Shown in pieces: positions 9,605-11,488 of a stretch of 43,755 nucleotides of DNA. Positions within the stretch are counted from its first letter, which is position 1, and every line of letters starts with the position of its first letter. The DNA is taken from IMG/VR virus record IMGVR_UViG_3300029990_000014, positions 1 to 43,755 of that record, one strand, 5' to 3'. A program made the translations under genes and the position numbers. A model generated the notes under the pieces. It made no database searches. It saw only the letters and a program-made list of their open reading frames with translations, and was not told the origin of the DNA. This DNA is from a virus.

Positions 9605-9617
9605 TGTCTTATCCACG

Positions 9618-9690
9618 TGCCCGTCGTGGGATTCGAACCCACACTGTACTGATTTTAAGTCAGCTTTCTCTGCCATTGGAATACACGGGC
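9618..9690 (-). tRNA. tRNA-Leu (anticodon UAA), short variable arm
   Basis: Cloverleaf on the minus strand: acceptor GCCCGTG/GACGGGC (six pairs plus a G-G at position 7), D-loop with GG, anticodon stem GCTGA/TCAGT with loop CTTAAAA (anticodon UAA), five-base variable region, T-arm GTGGG-TTCGAAT-CCCAC, discriminator A, no encoded CCA. It reads UUA, a codon used freely in this genome but rare in typical actinobacteria. The short variable arm is class I, whereas cellular bacterial tRNA-Leu is class II. Confidence 0.85.
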
Positions 9691-9796: not shown

Positions 9797-10030
9797 TTAG
9801 TCGCCGTTGTGAACCCAGATCAGGTGATGCTTATGCTGGCTACGGGGACCGTAAGGAACTGAACTACAAGTAAGACTTTCCTGCGTATGAACGTCAGTAG
9901 ATGACGCCCCTTCTTCTGTACACCGACCGCCGCGAATCGGAATCGGATCATTCGAAGACTTAGGACAAGCACCGGCAGTAAGAAATACAAAGCCCAGAAC
10001 TACGGCTCCTGTAATAAGCCTGCGTCGCAT
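9797..10030 (-). CDS. Small secreted or membrane-anchored protein
   Basis: 77 residues from the ATG at 10030, preceded by GGTGG at six bases and placed just after the TGA of the Acb2-like gene. The N-terminus is a signal-like segment: MRRRLITGAVVLGFVFLTAGAC, with charged residues, a hydrophobic core and a Cys that may be a weak lipobox (TAGAC). The rest is hydrophilic with two more Cys. It may be an exported lipoprotein acting at the cell surface, such as superinfection exclusion; that is speculation. The longer frame upstream of 10030 is a shadow of the overlapping gene. Confidence 0.6.
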   Translation of the reverse strand: MRRRLITGAVVLGFVFLTAGACPKSSNDPIPIRGGRCTEEGASSTDVHTQESLTCSSVPYGPRSQHKHHLIWVHNGD

Positions 10031-10031
10031 A

Positions 10032-10292
10032 TCAGTCCACCTTCTGATCAGTAGTCTCGACGGGCTCGGGATTACGGGCAATAGCTGCATTAGCCCACAG
10101 CATAGCCTCTTCAATCTTGGTAATAGCAAGAGACTGTTCACGGCTAGGGGGCGTTGATGCAAGAGTGAACAAAGCAATCGCGCCAAACCGATTACGCAAC
10201 TCTGCGTGGATATTTACCTTATTGCCTGTAGGTGCATGGTATGCGAACCGATTCTGCATATCGGCGACAACAGCTTCACTAGGGTACTTCAT
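10032..10292 (-). CDS. Acb2/Tad1-domain protein (anti-CBASS/anti-Thoeris candidate)
   Basis: 86 residues from the ATG at 10292, chosen because GGAG lies six bases upstream; ATG at 10304 is an alternative. The sequence has the layout I know from the Acb2/Tad1 (DUF7681-type) group: RFAYHAPTG, a helix HAELRNRFG, then PSREQSLAITKIEEAM followed by WANAAIAR. Characterised members bind cyclic oligonucleotide or cyclic ADP-ribose signals and so silence CBASS or Thoeris defence. The role here is inferred from this signature. It sits between two tRNA genes and a small exported protein, in an accessory part of the early region. Confidence 0.75.
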   Translation of the reverse strand: MKYPSEAVVADMQNRFAYHAPTGNKVNIHAELRNRFGAIALFTLASTPPSREQSLAITKIEEAMLWANAAIARNPEPVETTDQKVD

Positions 10293-10322
10293 TATAGCCT
10301 CCATGTAGCGAATTAAGTTACG

Positions 10323-10394
10323 TAGTCCCTGAGGGATTCGAACCCCCGACATGTTGCGTGTAAGGCAGCCGCTCTACCACTGAGCTAAGAGACC
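10323..10394 (-). tRNA. tRNA-Val (anticodon UAC)
   Basis: Minus-strand cloverleaf: acceptor GGTCTCT/AGGGACT, D-arm GCTC-AGTGGTA-GAGC, anticodon loop CTTACAC (anticodon UAC), T-arm CGGGG-TTCGAAT-CCCTC (four Watson-Crick pairs plus G-T), discriminator A, no encoded CCA. One C-A mismatch lies in the anticodon stem. It reads GUA, the codon most often used where the genome-wide TGTAGCG motif falls in sense-strand genes as GTA-GCG (Val-Ala). Confidence 0.9.
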
Positions 10395-10466: not shown

Positions 10467-10564
10467 TAGAGTAGGCAGGACTCGAACCTGCTTCTGTCAA
10501 GGCGACTCGCGGAATATTCCGCTATCCACGACCTGACCGCTCTCGCCTACTGAGCTACTACTCT
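10467..10564 (-). tRNA. tRNA-like gene with a 32-base anticodon loop region
   Basis: 98 bases. Acceptor AGAGTAG/CTACTCT pairs perfectly; D-arm GCTC...GAGC and T-arm GCAGG-TTCGAGT-CCTGC are standard. The anticodon stem is GTCAG/TTGAC, but instead of seven bases it encloses 32, including the palindrome GCGGAATATTCCGC. No long-variable-arm fold fits, so the amino acid cannot be assigned. It may be a tRNA with an inserted hairpin, an intron-like insertion or a decayed tRNA. Intact outer stems argue that the RNA is still maintained. Confidence 0.55.
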
Positions 10565-10675: not shown

Positions 10676-10819
10676 TGGAATGGGAGGGGTTCGAACCCTC
10701 AACTTGCGACTCGGTGGATAAGACCCTTATCAATCCGTTTAGTCTCATGTATTCCCGATGAGTAGCCTGGGCAACCAACCCTATCTGGATCTTTTGGCTA
10801 CATCTTATACTACCATCCC
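10676..10819 (-). tRNA. tRNA-like gene expanded to 144 bases
   Basis: The 3' end is clearly tRNA-like: GAGGG-TTCGAAC-CCCTC, then CCATTCC and discriminator A. GGGATGG followed by TA at 10819-10811 pairs with CCATTCC (one G-T). One possible fold has D-stem GTAT/ATAC, with a large hairpin GATG-TAGCC/GGCTA-CATC inserted in the D-loop, and an anticodon stem TGAGA/TCTTA around about 19 bases. It shares CGAGTCGC, upstream of the T-arm, with the tRNA-like gene at 10467. The anticodon is not assignable. It could be a decayed or insertion-bearing tRNA. Confidence 0.4.
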
Positions 10820-10822
10820 GTG

Positions 10823-10903
10823 CTAACTGGCGGTGGACCCACCACCCATTCCGCGCAGCACCACCCGTTTAGGATATGAACGGAGTAGCCCACCGCCAGT
10901 TAG
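10823..10903 (-). other. 14-bp perfect inverted repeat between the SSB-like gene and tRNA cluster
   Basis: CTAACTGGCGGTGG (10823-10836) pairs with CCACCGCCAGTTAG (10890-10903) around a 53-base loop. It lies six bases after the stop of the minus-strand gene at 10910 and just before the tRNA-like genes. No T-run follows, so it is more likely an RNA processing or stability structure than a terminator. Together with 10564-10822 this fills the roughly 340-base stretch without a protein gene. Confidence 0.6.
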
Positions 10904-10909
10904 AGTCTA

Positions 10910-11488
10910 TCAGAGGAAGTCGTCAGTATCCGCAGTTACAGGCTTAGCAGCCGCACGGGCAGCCATTGAAGCAGCCAAAGGAGATGCCTGACGAACAACA
11001 CCAGCGGAGCTTGCAAGAACGCCGCTAGATCCTGCGGGCTTACGGAGCTTCACCTCGTAATTTGTGAACTCCTGATCGTCCTTGCCCTTATTGTAGCGAA
11101 CCGTAATCATGACCTCGATACCAATGAGGTCTTCCTCATCGCTCTTGAGGATGTTATTAGCCGGAAGCCCCAGAGAAACCCAGCGACCCTTAAGCCGTCC
11201 GATTTTCTTCTGATCCTTCTCGTCCATGTCCCGAAGATTCATCGGAATGCCCAGGTACTCCCACAGCTTACGGTTGGGAGAATTCTCGGAATCCTCGTCA
11301 ATCGTGAACTCAATGGTGTATCCCCGAGTCGCTTCCTTATCAGGGAGAGCTTCCTTAGAGTTAACCTTGAATCTAGAGACAGTTGCAAGATACGTACCCG
11401 CCGGAACTCGGTCAGTAGTAATTACGCCAATAGCTGCAATTGCGTCATCATCGAAGTCATCTTCGAATGCGGCGTCAAAGAGGCCCAT
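10910..11488 (-). CDS. SSB-like recombination protein (DUF669-type candidate)
   Basis: 192 residues. Acidic N-terminus (EDDFDDD), a beta-rich core with GTYLATVSRFKV, IEFTIDEDSENSPNRKLWEYL and GRWVSLGL, an Ala-rich linker, and an acidic tip ending DTDDFL. The linker plus acidic tip ending near Phe is the layout of single-strand-binding proteins, whose tail recruits partners. It follows a Sak4-like ATPase and a Cas4/RecB-like nuclease in one operon; Sak4-type recombinases work with an SSB. The fold assignment is by layout and context, not by a sure signature. Confidence 0.6.
   Translation of the reverse strand: MGLFDAAFEDDFDDDAIAAIGVITTDRVPAGTYLATVSRFKVNSKEALPDKEATRGYTIEFTIDEDSENSPNRKLWEYLGIPMNLRDMDEKDQKKIGRLKGRWVSLGLPANNILKSDEEDLIGIEVMITVRYNKGKDDQEFTNYEVKLRKPAGSSGVLASSAGVVRQASPLAASMAARAAAKPVTADTDDFL

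Follow-up and report, generated by a model that had tools for sequence, protein, structure and literature searches.

A probable Acb2-type counter-defence sponge encoded between tRNA genes of a virus with a likely actinobacterial host

A short phage protein, P0001, is supported as an Acb2-type protein by its family, its predicted fold and its pocket residues. It is encoded on the minus strand at 10032-10292 of the window, by which we mean the whole stretch of DNA that was analysed, a linear virus contig of 43,755 bases from IMG/VR. We consider it very probable that P0001 serves the phage as a counter-defence sponge, a hexamer binding host nucleotide second messengers and thereby blocking CBASS and/or Thoeris. 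An earlier note, made from the DNA letters without database searches, had placed the protein in the Acb2/Tad1 group, and the family match, the predicted fold and the pocket residues now agree on that identity.

RESULTS

The acb2-type gene

An ORF encoding 86 aa plus stop occupies exactly 10032-10292 (minus strand) and contains the REQSLAITKIEEAM...WANAAIAR signature that the earlier note had quoted. Its ATG (10290-10292, minus strand) lies about 30 bases past the end of tRNA-Val, and a GGAGG ribosome-binding site, read from the minus-strand sequence, stands 5 nt before it (10298-10302, minus strand). An alternative in-frame ORF of 106 aa starts at 10352; since that start falls inside the tRNA gene, the start at 10292 is preferred. 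The TGA of the acb2-type gene is separated by one base from the ATG of the next gene (9797-10030, minus strand), which encodes 77 aa with a hydrophobic N-terminus and for which no family was matched in Pfam or PHROGs. The two genes probably belong to the same operon. Promoter and terminator scans around the acb2-type gene gave results at or below chance.

Family membership

PF24729 (Acb2/Tad1 hairpin) is the sole Pfam family matched by P0001. The match, which the earlier note had proposed as a check on its reading, scores 53.6 bits (E 2.6e-14), twice the curated cut-off of 27 bits, and its alignment spans the entire profile (positions 1-58 of 58). It is the only PF24729 match in the record (E 1e-15), and the family had no match in 14 control genomes. 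Each of 74 aligned relatives likewise matches PF24729 and no other family. Among PHROGs, P0001 matches phrog_1454 (80.8 bits), whose function is listed as unknown; no dedicated NCBIfam model matches it.

Relatives are widespread. By tblastn they are encoded in 323 phage records, mostly of Mycobacterium, Paenibacillus and Gordonia phages, and all annotated ones among the matches listed are called hypothetical proteins; at least 373 IMG/VR stretches also encode relatives. The phrog_1454 members and 'hypothetical proteins' of Mycobacterium, Gordonia and Arthrobacter phages are of the same family as P0001, at about 40-55% identity.

Predicted fold

The single-chain AlphaFold model (pLDDT 87, pTM 0.65) has helices at residues 6-16, 24-46 and 51-73, that is, a short N-terminal helix followed by a two-helix hairpin, the architecture described for Acb2 (PMC12043709). 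When the model was searched against the PDB with Foldseek, Acb2-type sponges took ranks 1-3 and 5; structure prediction was among the checks that the earlier note had proposed. Rank 1 was 9ptq, Acb2 homolog 43 with 3'cADPR (rmsd 1.2 over 57 columns, probability 1.00), ranks 2 and 3 were T4 Vs.4 with cGAMP, and rank 5 was the Acb2 structure 8h2j with cGAMP; rank 4 was an unrelated helical protein. The Foldseek E-values are poor (0.28), which is to be expected of a short, all-helical protein. Direct phmmer comparison of P0001 with the PDB was also weak (best E 0.28); a profile built from ten relatives matched 9ptq with an E-value of 3.6e-10 and chains of Tad1 with values of about 4e-5.

Comparison with known sponges

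P0001 and the Acb2 proteins (T4 Vs.4, PDB 7uq2; Pseudomonas phage Acb2, PDB 8h2j) are all phage-encoded and hairpin-only, with a short N-terminal helix. Identity to T4 Vs.4 is only about 24%, yet the Vs.4 pocket residues Y8 and T68 are conserved; Vs.4 differs in a turn about 20 residues longer between its two long helices, which P0001 lacks. The closest solved relative by both profile and fold is Acb2 homolog 43 (9ptq), which has the same short hairpin turn and 28% identity.

Tad1 (PDB 7uav, 8kbe and others) has in common with P0001 a C-terminal hairpin bearing the motif SRE..A.T..EEA.MW, but it also has an N-terminal beta-sheet domain that P0001 is without. Membership of Tad1 itself was rejected on this ground: the model shows no strand and the 86 aa include no N-terminal domain, so the antiparallel beta-sheet that precedes the Tad1 hairpin is absent. 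P0001 is therefore Acb2-type, not Tad1.

Pocket residues

Data on ligand residues were drawn from PMC12657230 and reviews. In T4 Acb2, Y8A is binding-deficient and T68M reduces affinity (PMC12657230). These two positions align with Y18 and T58 of P0001, so the pocket residues, whose loss the earlier note had named as evidence against its reading, are kept. Across the 74 aligned relatives R33, R51, N68 and A72 are invariant, and F16, H19, P48, E52, T58, E61 and W66 are conserved in at least 95%. Opposite Y18, T58, W66 and N68 of P0001, 9ptq has T, T, F and T; with T for Y18 and F for W66, the pockets evidently vary within the family.

tRNA surroundings

Both ARAGORN and Rfam call tRNA-Val(tac) (10322-10394, minus strand) directly upstream of the acb2-type gene and tRNA-Leu(taa) (9617-9690, minus strand) downstream of it, which bears out the placement between tRNA genes given in the earlier note. 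A family-wide tie to tRNA genes was considered and rejected, since across 83 IMG/VR loci tRNA genes are no denser in the first kilobase around the family gene (about 0.04 per kb) than farther out, and just two of these loci have one that close. The tRNA neighbourhood looks incidental. The same arrangement is found in Gordonia phage Sephiroth, where an acb2-type gene sits in a tRNA cluster; genes for a phage nicotinamide phosphoribosyltransferase and a nucleotidyltransferase lie near it.

Two further elements were observed upstream in the window. At 10467-10564 (minus strand) Rfam reports a tRNA (48.8 bits) whose anticodon arm encloses 34 positions where 9 are expected, and ARAGORN, with introns allowed, reads tRNA-Thr(cgt) carrying an insert of 25 bases close to the palindrome GCGGAATATTCCGC. 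An insert this short would be unusual in a phage tRNA, and the gene may be decayed or misread. At 10678-10910 (minus strand) there is a tRNA-like 3' end, with a T-arm GAGGGTTCGAACCCCTC followed by CCATTCCA and, about 170 bases upstream, GGAATGG; it adjoins a 14-base inverted repeat (CTAACTGGCGGTGG/CCACCGCCAGTTAG), and Rfam makes no tRNA call in this element.

Phage relationships and distribution of the gene

Among named phages, the major capsid protein and DNA polymerase of the record are nearest to those of Cellulosimicrobium phage DS1, Arthrobacter phage Jasmine and its relatives, and Microbacterium phage Shocker. These relatives, together with a WhiB-like regulator encoded in the record, indicate that the host is probably actinobacterial. 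Megablast of window positions 1-24000 found no near-identical phage.

The acb2-type gene is absent from phage DS1 and was not found in the closest capsid relative, the contig G001, which may be a fragment. Jasmine has a copy just upstream of its terminase large-subunit gene; the window copy is in the replication arm. In a tree of only 78 columns, which is weak, P0001 groups with two other contigs (L002 and L048, support 95/82), apart from the copies of Jasmine and its kin contig G002. This distribution fits repeated gain and loss of the gene.

Additional hairpin genes occur in some related phages. In Jasmine (L008:3219-3419) and G002 (L097:1683-1862) a second, shorter hairpin gene directly follows acb2. 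Both are degenerate, at 22.3 and 27.4 Pfam bits, with part of the pocket motif missing; such a gene is possibly a partner subunit or a decayed duplicate. Another contig encodes a divergent hairpin protein of 29 bits with the motif KIREARMDCNSAIT (L087:1421-1861) and has a typical acb2 gene some 3 kb away.

DISCUSSION

Proposed function

By analogy with Acb2, P0001 would assemble as a hexamer with pockets between neighbouring subunits, and these would take up the nucleotide second messengers that the host produces on infection. Acb2 sequesters cyclic di- and trinucleotides, and the ligands of Tad1 include CDNs, CTNs and gcADPR (PMC12043709); those of P0001 may be cyclic di-/trinucleotides and/or cADPR isomers. 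The signals would be sequestered, not degraded, leaving CBASS and/or Thoeris effectors off, and the cell would survive until phage progeny are made. The defence blocked could possibly be CBASS, Thoeris or both, as judged from sequence, and the signalling-based defence in the host suggested by the earlier note is plausible. Sponges can themselves trip defences such as Panoptes, which monitor the loss of a decoy signal (PMC12657230).

Alternative explanations

The same fold and family would also accommodate a chiefly anti-Thoeris rather than anti-CBASS protein, one that mainly binds cADPR isomers, which are signals made by TIR proteins. The top match by both sequence profile and fold is an Acb2 homolog crystallized with 3'cADPR, which is a Thoeris signal (PMC13232231), and the next profile matches are chains of Tad1, a binder of gcADPR. 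Against this, the binding tyrosine of T4 Acb2 is kept in P0001 (Y18) where 9ptq has T, and both readings can hold at once, since CDNs and CTNs are ligands of Tad1 as well. We hold this narrower specificity to be a serious but tentative option, somewhat short of an even chance.

It is improbable that P0001 keeps the hairpin fold but has lost the sponge function and taken another phage role, such as regulator or scaffold. It does score below other copies (53.7 versus 67-79 bits), and the degenerate second hairpin genes of related phages mean that decay occurs in the family; however, P0001 retains all four invariant residues and the two whose T4 counterparts have been tested functionally, and the gene has a good ribosome site and a full-length ORF. 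A spurious ORF or chance similarity can be practically dismissed, given that the match in the record has an E-value of 1e-15, that the 14 control genomes have none, and that phage homologues number in the hundreds. A last possibility concerns the family rather than this gene: the short hairpin-only clade, encoded by hundreds of phages, those of actinobacteria among them, might be specialised for a signal unreported for Acb2-family sponges. We regard this as speculative and unlikely; if true, it would suggest that actinobacteria have a signalling defence yet to be characterised.

Significance

The preferred reading of P0001 remains that of a sponge against CBASS and/or Thoeris. Genes of the acb2 type have already been named in actinophages Xandras and BigBubba (PMC11953737) and in actinophage Statler (PMC13348362). 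The label 'anti-CBASS', used in recent actinophage genome reports, may be too narrow, because the nearest solved relative carries a Thoeris-type signal. That P0001 adds one sponge to a known, widespread family is well supported, and it provides a useful correction to annotation, since the phage records listed call its relatives 'hypothetical protein' and PHROGs still gives the family as 'unknown function'.
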